Below are positions 33,315 to 53,766 of a stretch of 53,766 bases of DNA, one piece after another (the stretch's first letter is position 1; every line of letters begins with the position of its first letter). Location: positions 1-53,766 of IMG/VR virus record IMGVR_UViG_3300028025_002785; one strand, written 5' to 3'. The stretch comes from a virus. Below the pieces are notes generated by a model. That model had not been told where the DNA came from. It saw only the letters and a list, made by a program, of their open reading frames with translations, and made no database searches. The position numbers were made by a program, and so were the translations under genes.

Positions 33315-33613
33315 AAAAGTGGCGATATCAGGCTAAGTGCCGTGGTATGTGCGACAGTCCAGAGACCGACGATTGGTTTCCGCCTAGGGACAAAACTAAA
33401 TACAAAACTATTGCCGACCGCGCAAAGTCAGTTTGCTTTGGCAAAGACGGTAAGGCAGAATGTCCCGTGAGGTTAGAGTGTTTGCTCTATGCCGAAGGTA
33501 ACGATGAACAACACGGAATATGGGGTGGCTTATCGCATCGTGAGCGAAACGCTCTGAAGCGCAAAGCTGCTAAACACGGAAAAACATTAGAGGAATGGGT
33601 ACGCAAAAAGTGA
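33293..33613 (+). CDS. WhiB-like transcription regulator, variant Cys spacing
   Basis: A 106-residue protein. TTG at 33293 sits 5 nt after AGGAG and is preferred to the GTG at 33287, which overlaps that site. WhiB features are WRYQAKCRGMC, VCFGKDGKAECPVRLEC, LLYAEGNDEQHGIWGGLS and the basic tail ERNALKRKAAKHGK. The family binds a 4Fe-4S cluster through four Cys, normally with CxxC in the middle, whereas here the middle pair is separated by 8 residues and an additional Cys occurs early. These proteins control sigma-factor activity in actinobacteria. Cluster binding in this variant is uncertain. It overlaps its neighbours. Confidence 0.75.
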   Translation: MFEDEGVEKWRYQAKCRGMCDSPETDDWFPPRDKTKYKTIADRAKSVCFGKDGKAECPVRLECLLYAEGNDEQHGIWGGLSHRERNALKRKAAKHGKTLEEWVRKK

Positions 33614-36327: not shown

Positions 36328-36600
36328 ATGTCTACAGAAGAACAAATCCTGCGTGTAAGCGCTGGCTCAAACCCGCAATCAGTAGCGTCTGCTATTGCCC
36401 ATAGTGTTTATGAAACACGAGGATGCAAGATCAGAGCAGTTGGTGCGGGAGCAGTAAACCAAGCAGTAAAAGCAATCGCTATCGCTAGAGGCTATACAGC
36501 TCCTAGAGGCATTGACTTGGTCTGCGTTCCCGGATTTTCAACTATCGAGAGTCATGATGGTCAGATATCTGCCATCGTATTCGAGGTAAAAACCAGTTAA
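36328..36600 (+). CDS. spoVS: SpoVS-like Alba-superfamily protein
   Basis: A 90-residue protein matching stage V sporulation protein S: ILRVSAGSNPQSVASAIAH, then RAVGAGAVNQAVKAIAIARG and GIDLVCVPGFSTI, ending near SAIVFEVKTS. SpoVS has an Alba-like fold that binds nucleic acid as a dimer. It affects sporulation and cell division in Bacillus and is often carried by phages. The gene stands alone between a promoter and a terminator, so it is probably separately controlled. Its targets here are unknown; it could package or regulate nucleic acid or disturb host division. Confidence 0.85.
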   Translation: MSTEEQILRVSAGSNPQSVASAIAHSVYETRGCKIRAVGAGAVNQAVKAIAIARGYTAPRGIDLVCVPGFSTIESHDGQISAIVFEVKTS

Positions 36601-48251: not shown

Positions 48252-48435
48252 GACAATCCTCCGTAAAAAAACATTTCAATGTTCGTGGATCACGTGGCGT
48301 TATCTGATCACAATCAAAGCACATCTCCCACGGTATCAATTTATGATGCTCGTCTAGGTAGCGATCAACTGCTTCGATACCTCCAGCGTTGTGCATCTCA
48401 ATGCACTTATTCTTTAGATCCTCCATCAAGTCCAT
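48244..48435 (-). CDS. Small Cys-containing protein (63 aa)
   Basis: A helical N-terminus (MDLMEDLKNKCIEMHNAGGI) is followed by WEMCFDCDQITPRDPRTLKC and a closing TEDCHE. Four Cys, plus His at 62, could form a zinc site. It overlaps the methyltransferase C-terminal frame by 29 nt and the next gene by 8 nt. Function unknown. Confidence 0.5.
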   Translation of the reverse strand: MDLMEDLKNKCIEMHNAGGIEAVDRYLDEHHKLIPWEMCFDCDQITPRDPRTLKCFFTEDCHE

Positions 48436-49171
48436 TGTTCACCTCCACCAGACGATTGATAATCCATTGAACAACAGGCACAGCAACAGCGTTACCCATT
48501 TGCTTATAGCGTTGAGAGTCAGACTGACTATCAGTCCAGCCATCAGGGAAACCTTGTAAGCGCTCGCACTCTAGTGGAGTCAAGCGACGAACAACTGCTT
48601 CTTCATACGCCATTGTGTCTTTAGCACGCTTAGCGTTAAGGGTTGGTGCTACTTCCTCTTTAGGAAAGTCATAAAGCTCAAAGTTACCAACGTGTGCCAC
48701 ACCGTGACCTCCGACTGTATCTATAGTAAACATAGGGTCATCGGGATTTCCGTAACCTTTACCTTGTGGACCTGCTGTGTCACTACGACCAATAACAGTT
48801 CCTTGAATTGGATACGCAACAGCTTGACCACCAGTCGTATCAACTGTGTAAGCAGGATCTGCTTCAGAACCTAGCCCTAAACCATTCTGTTTCTTTTCCA
48901 TCTCACGACCATCCTGTATTGGATAAGCAAGCATAGGCATGTTGTTACCACCCGTTCCCATACGCGCTTGTAATGTATTTATAACTGGACCTTGAACTCT
49001 TAGATCGTCTACGCGGTTGCCGTAGAAGATAAGAACGGTTGCTCTTGTGTCACCGTTATTCTCAAATGCGTTGAGTGTAGGAGTTACTTCGCCCTCTACC
49101 CATGTCTCGAAATCATCCACGTTCTGCGCTCTCCTACTCTTTATGAACCACAAGGTGACCACTATCCACAT
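48407..49171 (-). pseudogene. C-terminal half of the cytosine-5 DNA methyltransferase (frameshifted part)
   Basis: A 254-residue frame. It begins with a stretch that is not gene-like (MWIVVTLWFI), and from KSRRAQNVDDFETWVEGEV on it reads as the continuation of the upstream Dcm domain. The target-recognition part holds repeated TLQARMGTGGNNMP and TVDTTGGQAVAYPIQ segments. The C-terminal motifs are RRLTPLECERLQGFPDGWT (IX/X region) and RYKQMGNAVAVPVVQWI (motif X). The reading frame differs by one base from that of 49134-49871. If the joint is a true mutation the enzyme is dead. If it is a sequencing error or a translational shift, one complete methyltransferase results. Confidence 0.7.
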
Positions 49172-49871
49172 CTTGGTTGACTACTGTTGCATGGTGATAA
49201 ATCTCTGCTGGTATAGCGTTGGCTACTTCTCGCGCTTCATCCCCTGCTCTAGTGCTGAGTGGAGTAGCGCTGGCAATGACTTTCCTCTTTTTGTTGCTCG
49301 TCTCAAGATGCCCTCGCATGCCTTCGATGAGAGCAAGTACTTCTGAAGATGCTCGCCCTGAGTCTCCAAGACATCCAACAATGAAGACTCTACGCCTTCT
49401 TTGTGGGACTCCGAAGTGCTGAGCGTCAAGAATCCTGTAGCTGACCCCATACCCGCGCTCAACCAACGCCCCGATAACGGTTCCCATGTCTCGTCCTTCG
49501 TTGGAAGACAATAAACCGGGGACGTTTTCGAGGACGAACCACTTCGCTTTGGTTTCGTCGAGGATGCGACAGATTTCCCAGAAGAGTCCAGATCTAGCGC
49601 CAGCGAGTCCTGCCCGCTTTCCTGCGACTGAGAGGTCTTGACACGGGAAGCCTCCAACAATAATTCCGTCACTACCATCGAATCCGAGTTCTCTAAGTTG
49701 ATCACCTGTTACATCCTTTACATCGTTAATTAGTGTTGAGTTTGGAAATTGTTTTGCTAATACTGCTCGTGCGTGCTTATCGATCTCACATGAAGCAACC
49801 ACTGAAACCCCAGCTCGCTCTAGTGCTAGATCAAATCCACCTACACCAGCAAATAGTGATACTGCTTTCAT
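49134..49871 (-). CDS. Cytosine-5 DNA methyltransferase, N-terminal catalytic part
   Basis: A 245-residue frame with the Dcm catalytic core: motif I SLFAGVGGFDLALERAG, motif II EIDKHAR, motif IV VGGFPCQDLSVAGKR (catalytic Cys at about 75), motif VI LENVPGL and motif VIII FGVPQRRRRVFIVG. It should flip out and methylate cytosine at C5 in a defined DNA sequence, protecting phage DNA or copying a host pattern. The frame stops at 49134-49136, and the matching C-terminal half continues one base out of frame. The joint lies at the HLVVHK segment, and reading AAA then skipping one base restores the SRRAQNVDD continuation. It is coupled to the upstream gene by 4 nt. Confidence 0.8.
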   Translation of the reverse strand: MKAVSLFAGVGGFDLALERAGVSVVASCEIDKHARAVLAKQFPNSTLINDVKDVTGDQLRELGFDGSDGIIVGGFPCQDLSVAGKRAGLAGARSGLFWEICRILDETKAKWFVLENVPGLLSSNEGRDMGTVIGALVERGYGVSYRILDAQHFGVPQRRRRVFIVGCLGDSGRASSEVLALIEGMRGHLETSNKKRKVIASATPLSTRAGDEAREVANAIPAEIYHHATVVNQDVDSGHLVVHKE

Positions 49872-50101: not shown

Positions 50102-50388
50102 GCGTAAGTCTTAATCCTTCCCTTGTAGAATCCTCGCTCATCAGCAGTCATGCCACCCCACACACCATACGTTTCAGGCACAGTTAATGCGTGGTTCAAG
50201 CACTTAGCGATAACTGGGCAACCTTTGCACACAGCTTTTGCTTCTTTTTCTTTCTTACGTTTAGCGGCATCACGCATATTGTGCTCTAAGAAGAACAGTT
50301 CAGGATCTTTGCCCACGCAATTGCCTTGGTGTTGCCACTCCCATGCATCTGCAACGGGGTTTAAGTTTTTATAAGGTAGTACTGTCAT
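50098..50388 (-). CDS. WhiB-like transcription regulator
   Basis: A 96-residue canonical WhiB protein: WQHQGNCVGKDPELFF (first Cys), AVCKGCPVIAKCLNHAL (CxxCx5C) and the turn YGVWGGMTADERGFYKGR (GxWGG). These four Cys bind a 4Fe-4S cluster in actinobacterial and phage WhiB proteins, which bind sigma-A and change promoter choice. The presence of this family is strong evidence for an actinobacterial host. It sits in the early-like minus operon and may control the phage programme or dampen the host WhiB regulon. Confidence 0.88.
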   Translation of the reverse strand: MTVLPYKNLNPVADAWEWQHQGNCVGKDPELFFLEHNMRDAAKRKKEKEAKAVCKGCPVIAKCLNHALTVPETYGVWGGMTADERGFYKGRIKTYA

Positions 50389-51180: not shown

Positions 51181-51392
51181 TAGTACCACCCCTCTTCTAG
51201 TAGAAACGCCCACTCCTTAACGAGCGCCTTTGTAATTTCCGTGACTTCCTCATCCTCATAGGCTCCATAGTCGCTGAGGATATTGACATCGGTTAGGGTT
51301 TCCATCATGCGAGCATTGAGTTCGCCCTGCGAAAATGTGCCCCTTAACAATTGGGCAATCTGAATATCTAAGTTTTCCTTAGTCATAGTCAT
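51180..51392 (-). CDS. Small acidic helical protein
   Basis: A 70-residue acidic protein (TKENLDIQIAQLLRGTFSQG, NARMMETLTDVNILSDYGAY) with DEEVTEITKALVKEWAFLLE near the end. It is coupled by 4 nt to the upstream gene and by one base to the mini zinc ribbon. No family is recognised. Confidence 0.5.
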   Translation of the reverse strand: MTMTKENLDIQIAQLLRGTFSQGELNARMMETLTDVNILSDYGAYEDEEVTEITKALVKEWAFLLEEGWY

Positions 51393-51697
51393 GCTGATAA
51401 CTCCTTCGCAATTGATCTTTTGACCTCATTAATTGCCTTTCGCTCGCATCGGCTGATAACTTGCTCAGCCTCAGCAATGCCGTGGGTGTGCCAACCTTCC
51501 CAATACTTTGCATTGGTAGCCTCAACATAGAGGTGGATGATCTTGGTGCGTTCCTCATCAGTTAAGCAGTTAGGGATTAGATCCATTAGTTCCATGAAGA
51601 TAGGCTCTTCTTTGTTGACGTACTTAGCCTTTTCTGGTTGGTGGTATTCAATAGTCCATTTAGCATCTTGCAGCTGAATTGTTGTTGCGATATCCAT
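51389..51697 (-). CDS. Hypothetical protein, first gene of the minus operon
   Basis: A 102-residue protein. ATG 51697 follows GAAAGGG, while the in-frame ATG at 51769 lies upstream of the promoter and is rejected. The sequence is helical (IATTIQLQDAKWTIEYHQPE, EEPIFMELMDLIPNCLTDEE, RTKIIHLYVEATNAKYWEGW) with HGIAEAEQVISRCERKAINE near the end. It lies behind a CRP/GlxR-type promoter, so it leads a unit of about thirteen coupled genes. Function unknown. Confidence 0.55.
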   Translation of the reverse strand: MDIATTIQLQDAKWTIEYHQPEKAKYVNKEEPIFMELMDLIPNCLTDEERTKIIHLYVEATNAKYWEGWHTHGIAEAEQVISRCERKAINEVKRSIAKELSA

Positions 51698-51735
51698 AGG
51701 TACAGCCCTTTCGGTTAGTTGTTTGATATAGAGAA

Positions 51736-51764
51736 CATTAGGGCTACCGGGCAGGCTCGCCAAT
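51736..51764 (-). promoter_or_regulatory. Promoter of the minus-arm operon
   Basis: On the minus strand TTGGCG (51764-51759), a 17-nt spacer and TAATGT (51741-51736). The CRP-type box at 51775-51790 is exactly 10 nt upstream. The same geometry and much of the same sequence recur at the GP88 promoter. Confidence 0.6.
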
Positions 51765-51774
51765 AACATTTGGT

Positions 51775-51790
51775 GTGACCTGCATCACGT
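51775..51790. promoter_or_regulatory. CRP/GlxR-type box, one mismatch
   Basis: TGTGACCTGCATCACG: TGTGA-N6-TCAC with only the last base deviating from TGTGA-N6-TCACA. Its centre is about 86 bp before ATG 51697 and about 18 bp before the -35 hexamer. Confidence 0.6.
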
Positions 51791-52205
51791 GCGGGAAAGG
51801 GCCCGAAATAGATTTACTTCTCCTTGTTTCTATAGAGAGAGCACATGAGAGAGAGTAATAACGTCTCACGTTACTATCTCGGCTCTATTAGCCGCTACAT
51901 GGCTAGAGATCGCAGATTAGGCACATTCAGGCGAGATATGCGTATATCTCTCTGGGAGAGAGGCTGCAGAGCTGGTGGCACAACTGCTTAGTCTCTTTGT
52001 CGACAATGCAGTAGCCTAAATGTGCAGACAAAGCGATTTGTCGACATTAAATGTCAGCTATATGGCTCTCTCTCTCTTCTCTCTCTCTCTCTCTCTTTTC
52101 AAGCTTTCTCTCTCATTCAAGCAGATTTGATCCAAATGGGCAACTTCTCTCTCTCTCCGAGAGCATGACCGGGCATGAATGAGCAAGACTGGCTATGACT
52201 GGTCA
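51791..52205. other. Non-coding GA/CT-rich segment with inverted repeats (possible origin, packaging site or ncRNA)
   Basis: This gap has no convincing gene on either strand. It holds long CT runs at 52062-52099, further CTCTCT/GAGAGA runs throughout, and two copies of TTTGTCGACA 41 bp apart (51996-52005 and 52037-52046). A spaced inverted pair is GGCACATTCAGGC near 51918-51930 with GCCTAAATGTGC near 52014-52025. Two imperfect palindromes of the type ATGAC-YGG-KCATG lie near 52164-52206. Such repeat-rich, gene-free DNA suggests an origin, packaging signal or structured RNA. A 48-codon plus-strand ORF at 51845-51991 lacks support. Confidence 0.45.
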
Positions 52206-52253
52206 TGTGGCGAATATCACACGTGAGCAATATCACATGTGACCTGGGTCACA
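52206..52253. promoter_or_regulatory. Three head-to-tail CRP/GlxR-type boxes
   Basis: Three contiguous 16-bp boxes: TGTGGCGAATATCACA (52206-52221, one mismatch), CGTGAGCAATATCACA (52222-52237, one mismatch) and TGTGACCTGGGTCACA (52238-52253, perfect). The periodicity is exactly 16 bp with no gap. The two inner copies also form a 16-bp direct repeat beginning AATATCACA. Confidence 0.65.
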
Positions 52254-52255
52254 GG

Positions 52256-52310
52256 CCTCTCTCTATACCCTATCCCGAAGGGATAAGGGGAGGGTGGGTC
52301 AACACAAACA
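52256..52310. repeat. Conserved intergenic element, copy 1
   Basis: Directly after a perfect CRP-type box come a CT run, TATA, CCCGAAGGG, a G-rich stretch (GGGTGGGT) and CAACACAAACA. The same order occurs at 53533-53589. The CCC-GAA-GGG core forms a short hairpin in both copies. The role is unknown; it may be a promoter or insulating part of the regulatory unit. Confidence 0.55.
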
Positions 52311-52340
52311 TTTGGCTTTTGGGAGTAGGCATTTCCCTTT

Positions 52341-52377
52341 AAAAAGAAAGCCCAGCGGGGGCTGATTTCCGCTGAGC
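52341..52377 (-). terminator. Terminator for the 52416-53406 unit
   Basis: On the minus strand GCTCAGCGG and CCGCTGGGC form a 9-bp stem (one G-U pair), followed by TTTCTTTTT. A second hairpin without a T-run lies between it and the gene end. Confidence 0.7.
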
Positions 52378-52384
52378 TTCCTTG

Positions 52385-52410
52385 TTTGCTCAACCCCGGA
52401 GGGGAGCAAA
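52385..52410 (-). other. Hairpin directly after the 52416 gene
   Basis: TTTGCTC and GAGCAAA pair around a C-rich/G-rich interior (CCCC-GGA-GGG), 5 nt after the stop codon. No T-run follows. It may protect the 3' end or assist the downstream terminator. Confidence 0.5.
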
Positions 52411-52415
52411 GCTAT

Positions 52416-52691
52416 CTATTCATCCCATTCATCGTATCGATCGACCCATGCATCTAGGTGATGGGCCTCTACTATAGCTCTCGCCGGTGCCTGATCCTTA
52501 TCTCTCCACTTGACTGGAGAGGGTAGGTCGATCAGACGGTCGAAGTCTTCCTCCCAATAGGCATTAATTGCCGCCTTGCATGCATCGATCATAGACACTG
52601 GCACTGGCGGGTAGTGATTACTAGTTAAGTGAATCGCTAACCCCTGATCGAGGTCCATATTTGCGTACTCTATAGCTTGCGTTGATCCCAT
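52416..52691 (-). CDS. Conserved-looking hypothetical actinophage protein
   Basis: A 91-residue acidic protein: MGSTQAIEYANMDLDQGLAI, then HYPPVPVSMIDACKAAINAY and WEEDFDRLIDLPSPVKWRDK, ending HHLDAWVDRYDEWDE. This type of small acidic protein, with the VPVSMIDACKAAI helix, is familiar from actinophage early regions but has no known role. It follows the GP88 gene by 10 nt with GGAGAC as ribosome site and ends before two hairpins. Confidence 0.55.
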   Translation of the reverse strand: MGSTQAIEYANMDLDQGLAIHLTSNHYPPVPVSMIDACKAAINAYWEEDFDRLIDLPSPVKWRDKDQAPARAIVEAHHLDAWVDRYDEWDE

Positions 52692-52701
52692 GACTGTCTC
52701 C

Positions 52702-53406
52702 TTACTTCTTAGATATCGAGAATGAAATATTACTTTTACCCTTTAAACATATACCGCATGCCACGCACGCACCTTCAAGCTTGATCTGCCCACGCTGTTC
52801 AGGACATACCGCTGTGCGCTCGCCTATTGATAGGAGCATCTCTTTTGCCTGGTCGAATGTCTCGTGTAATCCTGCTAACGGGAGCCCTGCACGCTTGACA
52901 CGTGCCGCGGCTTCGAAGTTATCAGTATCAGTGGAGAAGTAGATCGAGAGATTCTCTAGACCCATAAGGCTATAGATAGCAGACTCTACACGTGTATACG
53001 CCCAAAACCTAACGTTAGGGTGCATCTGCACTACCTTTTGCCATGCATAGGTATACGTACCGTTGAAGAAGTCCCCGTCCCAATGAATGCGGAAGTCCTT
53101 AGGCGCATCCCACTTTTCACACTCAGCTTCAAATTCGATGATCATGTCATCCAATAGGGTAACCATAGTGTCGATATCTGCATCTCTCACTAAGTCCCAA
53201 TTGTGAATTAGGCTAGCCTTTACGTTAGGGTAGATCTTCTCTAGTTTTCCTGCGTAGCATATTTTGCTGCACACTGAAGTAGCCGACGGGCAAGAGTAGT
53301 CTCTCCCGGCGGGTAAACCAAACGAATTTGCAATGCGTGCTGTTTTGCCGTTAGGCGTTAAACTATTTGATACCTTGCGATCTTTCGACCGCTTCAATTT
53401 CTCCAT
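52702..53406 (-). CDS. GP88-family protein with Cys clusters
   Basis: A 234-residue protein of the GP88 family seen in mycobacteriophages and other actinophages. Characteristic parts are KTARIANSFGLPAGRDYSCP, SATSVCSKICYAGKLE (three Cys), FRIHWDGDFFNGTYTYAW, VRFWAYTRVESAIYSL and a C-terminal Cys set in TAVCPEQRGQIKLEGACVAC with GICLKG following. The two clusters may bind iron-sulfur or zinc, and the core looks like a barrel with radical-SAM-like spacing, but no CxxxCxxC motif is present. Its function is unknown. It is preceded by a promoter with two CRP-type boxes. Confidence 0.75.
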   Translation of the reverse strand: MEKLKRSKDRKVSNSLTPNGKTARIANSFGLPAGRDYSCPSATSVCSKICYAGKLEKIYPNVKASLIHNWDLVRDADIDTMVTLLDDMIIEFEAECEKWDAPKDFRIHWDGDFFNGTYTYAWQKVVQMHPNVRFWAYTRVESAIYSLMGLENLSIYFSTDTDNFEAAARVKRAGLPLAGLHETFDQAKEMLLSIGERTAVCPEQRGQIKLEGACVACGICLKGKSNISFSISKK

Positions 53407-53433
53407 AATCAGCCCTTCTAGTAGTTAATGCAT

Positions 53434-53462
53434 AGTTAACTCTCTCTAACCGCGCTCGCCAA
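53434..53462 (-). promoter_or_regulatory. GP88 promoter
   Basis: On the minus strand TTGGCG (53462-53457), a 17-nt spacer and TTAACT (53439-53434). The CRP-type box lies exactly 10 nt upstream, as at 51736-51764. The intervening sequence between box and -35 is also similar (CAAA....TA). Confidence 0.6.
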
Positions 53463-53472
53463 TACCTTTTGC

Positions 53473-53488
53473 TGTGATCTACATCACA
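53473..53488. promoter_or_regulatory. CRP/GlxR-type box, perfect match
   Basis: TGTGATCTACATCACA is a perfect TGTGA-N6-TCACA palindrome, 10 nt upstream of the GP88 -35 hexamer. Confidence 0.7.
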
Positions 53489-53515
53489 CCTGGAGCAGCT
53501 GACAGCAGCTGGCTG

Positions 53516-53531
53516 TGTGACCTACATCACA
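53516..53531. promoter_or_regulatory. CRP/GlxR-type box, perfect match
   Basis: TGTGACCTACATCACA, a second perfect box with its centre 43 bp from the first, about four helical turns, so two dimers would lie on the same face. The conserved element copy 2 begins 2 nt after it. Confidence 0.7.
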
Positions 53532-53532
53532 T

Positions 53533-53589
53533 CTCTCTCTTGATATAACCCGAAGGGTGAATGGGTGGGTGGGCATTCAACACAAACAA
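53533..53589. repeat. Conserved intergenic element, copy 2
   Basis: CT run, GATATAA, CCCGAAGGG, G-rich stretch (GGGTGGGTGGG) and CAACACAAACA, in the same order as at 52256-52310 and again directly beside a perfect CRP-type box. Confidence 0.55.
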
Positions 53590-53621
53590 GCAGGCCCCGG
53601 CGGCCGCAGCCGCCAGGGTCG
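53590..53621 (-). terminator. GC-rich hairpin terminator after the right-edge gene
   Basis: On the minus strand GGCGGC-TGCG-GCCGCC forms a stable stem, extended by AGGC/GGCCT outside it, and is followed by the T-rich CTTGTTTGTG. It starts 8 nt after the stop of the edge gene. Confidence 0.6.
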
Positions 53622-53628
53622 CCTGGAA

Positions 53629-53766
53629 TTATTCGAAGCTGATCCGCAGCTCCACTACACGGTTATCCTCATTGAGCCGAACCTCAACAGGATAGATACC
53701 ATCACCGTATCCCGAGCTGGTGGCCACGGCCTCGTTAGCTTGGCCATTTTGCACGAACCAGTTATG
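53629..53766 (-). CDS. Partial protein, C-terminal 45 residues (DUF4241-like pattern)
   Basis: A frame open from the right edge to TAA 53631-53629. The product ends with NGQANEAVATSSGYGDGIYP, then VEVRLNEDNRVVELRISFE. A 'GYGDGxYpVxV' end is common to DUF4241-type and related small beta proteins. Too little is present for a firm name. The start and the rest lie outside the window. Confidence 0.5.
   Translation of the reverse strand, partial: HNWFVQNGQANEAVATSSGYGDGIYPVEVRLNEDNRVVELRISFE

Follow-up and report, generated by a model that had tools for sequence, protein, structure and literature searches.

Introduction

A gene-free segment headed by three regulator-type boxes packed against each other raises the question of which protein reads these boxes in a virus and what such an array could control. 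The window analysed here is the whole of the IMG/VR virus record IMGVR_UViG_3300028025_002785 (53766 bases, GC about 45%). The original prediction described the boxes as touching without a single intervening base, with an exact 16-bp periodicity of about 1.5 helical turns, in an arrangement unlike a simple operator and beside a gene-free, repeat-rich segment. It likened the arrangement to a sink, a nucleation array or an assembly platform, which might control replication or an untranslated RNA. It recognised neither the host CRP/GlxR type of the boxes nor the presence of the same box in promoters of this phage and of its relatives. We know of hardly any work on regulation in phages of freshwater actinobacteria.

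The virus record and its probable host

The genes of the window include those for a tail sheath, DNA polymerase A, RecA, a class II ribonucleotide reductase (78% to that of Actinomycetia phage DSL-LC01) and two WhiB proteins. WhiB is an actinobacterial marker, and it was present in 20 of the 39 virus records examined. WhiB, the Gp88 gene and the class II ribonucleotide reductase together indicate an actinobacterial host for the window virus, probably one from freshwater. A search for near-identical phage records with positions 29130-53766 returned none, and the tetranucleotide comparison with 19 bacterial stretches gave correlations of 0.09-0.38, with no group standing out. The phage also encodes a SpoVS-family protein (PF04232, 1.2e-29) at 36328-36600 (plus strand) and a C5 DNA methyltransferase at 48407-49871 (minus strand), the latter as two overlapping frames (49134-49871 and 48407-49171); frames of similar size with the same overlap are found in the related locus L001.

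The three-box array and the gene-free leader

An exact box is defined here as the 16-bp palindrome TGTGA-N6-TCACA, and a looser count allows one mismatch. With these definitions, the three abutting boxes of the original prediction were confirmed at 52206-52253 (Table 1).

Table 1. Features of the array, the leader, the composite promoters and the WhiB genes in the window.
Feature	Position	Strand	Remarks
Array box 1, TGTGGCGAATATCACA	52206-52221	.	CRP/GlxR-type palindrome, 1 mismatch
Array box 2, CGTGAGCAATATCACA	52222-52237	.	1 mismatch to TGTGA-N6-TCACA
Array box 3, TGTGACCTGGGTCACA	52238-52253	.	exact TGTGA-N6-TCACA, 0 mismatches
Conserved upstream element ATGTTTGTGTTGACCCACCCTCCC with UUCG-type hairpin	52271-52313	-	ahead of the array
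Second copy of upstream element	53546-53590	-	before boxes 53473 and 53516
Terminator-like hairpin of upstream gene	52349-52363	-	
Gene-free leader	51790-52205	-	GA/CT tracts, two TTTGTCGACA repeats (51996, 52037), short covarying stem
Single box, first composite promoter	51774-51789	-	1 mismatch; 10 bp before -35-like hexamer
-35-like TTGGCG, first composite promoter	51758-51763	-	part of repeated TTGGCGAGC; hexamer assigned by reading
-10-like TAATGT	51735-51740	-	17 bp from -35-like hexamer; assigned by reading
Gene after first composite promoter	51389-51697	-	likely start 51697 (by reading); no Pfam match
Single exact box, second composite promoter	53473-53488	-	
Further exact box	53516-53531	.	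43 bp from box at 53473
-35-like TTGGCG, second composite promoter	53457-53462	-	assigned by reading
-10-like TTAACT	53434-53439	-	17 bp from -35-like hexamer; assigned by reading
Gp88-family gene (PF17338)	52702-53406	-	behind second composite promoter
WhiB gene 1	50134-50337	-	two WhiB genes also in several relatives
WhiB gene 2	33320-33556	+	

The window has 3 exact boxes, where 300 dinucleotide shuffles averaged 0.053. Six boxes have at most one mismatch, none of them outside 51774-53531; the shuffles gave a mean of 2.12 and a maximum of 7, so that the number of one-mismatch boxes is not extreme by itself. On the other hand, two boxes 16 bp apart appeared in 0 of the 300 whole-window shuffles, and the region 51770-52416 holds 4 boxes against a mean of 0.024, with a pair in 0 of 2000 shuffles.

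The array follows the terminator-like hairpin and the conserved upstream element, and heads 416 gene-free bases; its place beside a gene-free, repeat-rich segment is borne out. This segment runs from the stop of the minus-strand frame 52416-52691 as far as 51697, the likely start codon, which was assigned by reading. Reading of the sequence on both sides of the array found neither the composite-promoter element nor a -10, and no -35/-10 pair at the usual distance. Repeats of about 10 bp (GCATGACCGG, GCATGAATGA, GCAAGACTGG, CTATGACTGG and TCATG) adjoin the array at 52164-52207; they were not seen by eye in L001.

The first part of the upstream element (ATGTTTGTGTTGRCCCACCCTCCC) is invariant in 6 aligned loci except for one A/G position. 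As a conserved noncoding element, GTTTGTGTTGRCCCWCCC precedes the operator regions, that of the box-free locus L008 included, and 72 IMG/VR stretches hold it. The TTTGTCGACA repeat of the leader also occurs in the same segment of L001, L003, L004, L006 and L008. An inverted repeat at 51948-51962 (minus strand) has arms that differ among relatives yet stay complementary, which amounts to one short stem in which both strands have changed (alignment columns 115-129; four sequences, two of them near-copies); a single short covarying stem is too little to claim an RNA. Rfam gave 0 matches over the whole window at the gathering score.

Identity of the boxes

For the Corynebacterium cAMP receptor GlxR, the published consensus is 5'-TGTGA-N6-TCACA-3' (PMC7999487). 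All three array boxes fit this palindrome, two of them with one mismatch. GlxR and Rv3676 are names of CRP in relatives, and the GlxR/CRP consensus can be written as TGTGANNTANNTCACA, with a T-A centre. Among 110 unique boxes of the window's group, whose centres had not been selected for, T-A is favoured as well (T in 127 of 220 at position 8), and array box 3 itself has T-G at its centre. The phage boxes thus share with GlxR and Rv3676 (Crp) sites the same 16-bp TGTGA-N6-TCACA and the T-A centre, but differ from them in being viral, in standing before gene after gene and in forming head-to-tail arrays. As far as their sequence tells, the boxes are most likely sites of the type bound by the host cAMP-receptor regulator.

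Conservation and spacing in relatives

The nearest relatives (L001, L002 and L003) have three boxes at the same place as the window, and they keep the array although the bases between half-sites have changed. The spacings there are 16 and 17, and pairs at both distances are common in IMG/VR, so that the exact 16-bp periodicity holds for the window but not as a rule: what is conserved in related phages is the three-box array and its location rather than a strict 16-bp step. L006 has boxes spaced 16, 27 and 16 at the array place. In L004 and L005 this place holds two boxes at a distance of 26 bp, and the Gp88 gene is preceded by a longer array (16, 17, 15, 16, 32); in L060, 7 boxes form a cluster. 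Relatives without the array, which the original prediction had named as its refutation, were found in part: a tandem pair is missing from L331, L332, L335 and L338, and L008, whose Gp88 is 60% identical, has the same layout but no box at all and shows, by eye, other repeats at the same place.

Among 80 Gp88 loci, at least three boxes were found in 50, one box in 2 and none in 28. The last figure implies that this gene neighbourhood can do without the boxes, which constitute a lineage trait. A pair 15-17 bp apart is present in 12 of the 80, several of these loci being near-copies of each other. In a wider set of 151 overlapping loci (1.32 Mb), chosen by Gp88 or by the upstream element, 614 boxes with at most one mismatch were counted, against 60, 25, 71 and 43 for four scrambled palindromes.

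Exact abutting pairs were found in 20 stretches of IMG/VR, and they are very rare in prokaryote genomes (7 stretches in 257 Gb). By centre spacing, the unique exact pairs in IMG/VR number 17 at 16, 10 at 17, 1 at 18, 0 at 19, 2 at 20, 6 at 21 and 7 at 22. The figures for 17-22 come from a complete scan of gaps 1-6. These counts mean that several unrelated viruses prefer a spacing of about 1.5 turns to one of 18-20, 16 and 17 both being used. The prediction of regulator boxes about 1.5 turns apart, in a departure from a simple operator, is supported. When pairs of scrambled palindromes were scanned for (gap 0-30), none of the 105 stretches obtained had a spacing of 16; many of these matches lie at repeated positions such as 23, so that the control is a rough one. 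According to our own ORF calling, 17 of 19 abutting pairs are intergenic and 2 overlap a 53-codon frame; the 19 leave out L051 and L053, near-copies of L049 and L052. In L016, L029, L032 and L059 a TTGACA-17-TANNNT promoter begins 16-27 bases after the pair.

As for named phages, DSL-LC01 (a metagenome assembly) has 0 exact boxes and 4 with one mismatch, Wakanda 0 and 1 in the 80 kb of its 127 kb covered in two pieces, and Gaia no box in 45-90 kb. Cultured relatives sought for the array-bearing L058, L060, L031, L483 and L370 gave no useful match.

Single boxes and composite promoters

Two boxes of the window, at 51774 and 53473, share one layout on the minus strand: the box is followed after 10 bp by TTGGCGAG, then by a -10-like hexamer 17 bases past TTGGCG, and then by a gene. 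TTGGCGAG occurs twice in the window, both times at these composite promoters. The relatives have about 10 boxes per 10 kb, typically one ahead of a gene and followed, at a fixed distance, by a phage-specific element in the place of the -35. The sequence of this -35 region is repeated within one phage and different between phages.

Counted with patterns derived from the same sequences in which they were counted, the private element is AGGGTGTAGGT in L441 (10 of 10 copies 5 bp after the box), GGGTGGCAGGTT in L352 (8 of 8 at a fixed distance from the box), CAAA..TTGGCGA in L141 (6 of 6, 1-2 bp after the box) and GGGTCTAGGGTTG in L157 (3 of 3, 6-7 bp after the box); in L350, GGGTGGCAGGTT stands at the fixed distance in 3 of 4 cases and at 16 bp in the fourth, three of the copies being the same sequences as in L352. 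The loose pattern for L333 had a box in 6 of 19 occurrences, and the pattern for L332 gave no matches. The distance of the -10-like hexamer peaks 31-32 bp past the box (10 matches), and the next highest single distance, at 62, has 4.

With the -10 assigned by reading, single boxes are centred at about -53 from presumed start sites. The site of a canonical class I CRP promoter is centred at -61.5, or whole turns further, and that of class II at -41.5; a box at about -53 would not be in a canonical E. coli CRP position. A scan of 51600-53766 for consensus sigma-70 promoters found 1 promoter-like site, against 2.9 expected, and did not find the composite promoters; the consensus scan by itself therefore gives them no support. 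WhiB, acting with a host sigma factor, is a candidate for the phage factor that would read the private -35 elements beside the boxes.

The protein that reads the boxes

No match to the CRP DNA-binding domain (PF13545) above the cut-off was obtained in 16 plus 24 virus records, many of them fragments, apart from which one weak sub-threshold match was seen in G018; the cNMP-binding domain (PF00027) gave none in the 16. With no CRP above the cut-off in these 40 records, a host protein is the most likely reader. On the host side, the solved structures closest to a Rhodococcus protein (3h3u, 3d0s and others, E about 1e-132) belong to the CRP/FNR family and include M. tuberculosis CRP. An orthologue of this protein (E 1e-40 or better) is present in 281 of 296 genomes of its class, and ASRETVNKALADF, taken as the recognition helix, is identical to that of Rhodococcus in both of the orthologues from small genomes that were compared.

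Exact boxes total 3 in 17 genomes of 1.2-1.5 Mb from the class, which may be of the 'Ca. Planktophila' kind. With the backward pattern as an uncalibrated control, the core GTGA-N6-TCAC occurs 140 times against 387 in these genomes, being the rarer in all 17, and 228 times against 59 in three larger ones. If the host is of the small-genome kind, its CRP may not use TGTGA-N6-TCACA, despite the same helix in two such proteins. The counts would fit a host of another kind, a CRP that acts through weaker sites in small genomes, or boxes that are read otherwise.

Proposed mechanism and alternative explanations

The explanation that we favour, and hold to be somewhat probable, is that the boxes are host CRP sites, the single ones in composite early promoters and the array as a multi-CRP operator heading the leader. 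It draws on the identity of the sites by sequence, their conservation in the nearest relatives, the fixed spacing to promoter elements and a phage gene content with no detectable CRP; from these, CRP binding, activation and a role for the array are inferred. Host CRP with cAMP would bind the single boxes, which lie some 53 bp ahead of the presumed start sites in composite early promoters where the phage-specific element would replace the -35, and the bound CRP would most likely activate RNA polymerase together with a factor reading that element. The array, which heads the gene-free leader, would bind several dimers of CRP. In B-DNA, a neighbour at 16 bp is rotated by roughly half a turn, and a distance of 32 bp makes about three turns, so that neighbouring dimers would lie on opposite faces and those of boxes 1 and 3 on the same face. 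This geometry would concentrate host CRP at the start of the early region, and host cAMP could then act on the leader as well as on the promoter that lies about 430 bp downstream of the array.

Several alternatives deserve consideration. The spacing may be incidental, short duplications of boxes in regulatory regions having left copies one box length apart. Boxes 1 and 2 are 75% identical across the 16-bp shift, as expected from a short duplication, and the frequent spacings equal the box length or one base more; however, the array of L001-L003 has outlived changes between half-sites, and exact abutting pairs are hardly found in prokaryote genomes, and we regard this explanation as unlikely. 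A part in a replication origin, where CRP or another protein would open or organise the leader, is rather unlikely. The segment is long, gene-free and repeat-bearing, with TTTGTCGACA twice in the window and again in the same segment of relatives, and abutting pairs elsewhere are mostly intergenic; direct repeats as in iteron origins are present, but no initiator gene has been assigned or linked, the cumulative GC skew turns near 44-48 kb, where the gene strand switches, and not at 52 kb, and the same box is part of promoters elsewhere.

The boxes might also serve as operators for a repressor, or another regulator, that is encoded by the phage and happens to read TGTGA-N6-TCACA, in an immunity system like that of the cluster A stoperators. 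The bimodal presence of boxes among Gp88 loci, the other repeats at the same place in L008 and the box-side elements that differ from phage to phage would agree with it; nevertheless, we think it quite unlikely, given the absence of CRP-type proteins above the cut-off in the 40 records and boxes that match GlxR down to the centre. Among 47 window ORFs, the only possible regulators recognised by Pfam were WhiB (twice), SpoVS and a sub-threshold MerR fragment, and a cluster A repressor query, run with no positive control, was without match in 15 records. Finally, the array could be a decoy that draws host CRP off host promoters and has no role at phage promoters. Its three sites have no promoter at the usual distance, L060 has seven, and with so few exact boxes in the small genomes phage sites could outnumber host ones; yet many boxes stand singly at promoters, and for CRP at its usual copy number three to seven sites would be few, unless the phage genome is amplified. 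We consider a decoy very unlikely.

Returning to host CRP as the reader, the box in front of many early genes in relatives suggests a virus wired into host metabolic control. A broader picture, which we put forward as a speculation with little chance of holding in full, is that a large set of uncultivated actinophages has placed its early regulon on the host cAMP receptor: the box and a private -35 read by a phage factor would form the promoters, and arrays at 1.5 turns would load CRP on both faces so as to seize it in streamlined hosts with almost no consensus sites. If the boxes work as read here, infection by these viruses would be tied to host cAMP, and the phage-private promoter elements would be a direct handle on a specificity factor not known so far; the arrays would be a natural test of CRP dimers binding side by side 16 bp apart.

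Comparison with known systems

The right arm of cluster A mycobacteriophages resembles the window in having Gp88 near its right end, with about 51% protein identity to the window Gp88. Unlike the window, the right end of the cluster A phage JoshKayV (8.3 kb) has 0 boxes. Cluster A stoperators are asymmetric 13-bp sites, and the boxes, being palindromes, do not belong to this type.

In the literature searched, few papers of which were examined in full, neither arrays of CRP/GlxR boxes in phages nor a promoter family built on a box with private -35 elements nor arrays at 16-17 bp were found to be reported; the terms 'GlxR', 'Crp' and 'cAMP' are absent from the text of a WhiB/Lsr2 survey (PMC8612146). 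A known case of phage promoters under host-CRP control is E. coli phage T1, in which host cAMP-CRP acts directly at the promoters of pir, dam and recE and so connects infection with metabolism (PMC6737242). The action of host CRP on phage promoters is what T1 has in common with the present proposal; T1 differs in that the effect is repression and the host a proteobacterium, and the word 'tandem' is absent from the text searched.

The closest cultured cases are the 'Ca. Planktophila' phages LanE43-AprE7 and LanE43-AprF5, described in the parts consulted as freshwater actinophages with WhiB (PMC10202952). Unlike the window they have no tandem array, and the boxes go unmentioned in the text of that paper examined. 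Each has two exact boxes, whereas four scrambled controls gave 0 exact matches each; three of the four boxes are intergenic, one of those in E7 lies inside a 54-codon frame, and F5 has two more with one mismatch. L032, which carries an abutting pair, matches both phages at 76% over 1.86 kb. With their single boxes, these two cultured phages make part of the proposal testable now.
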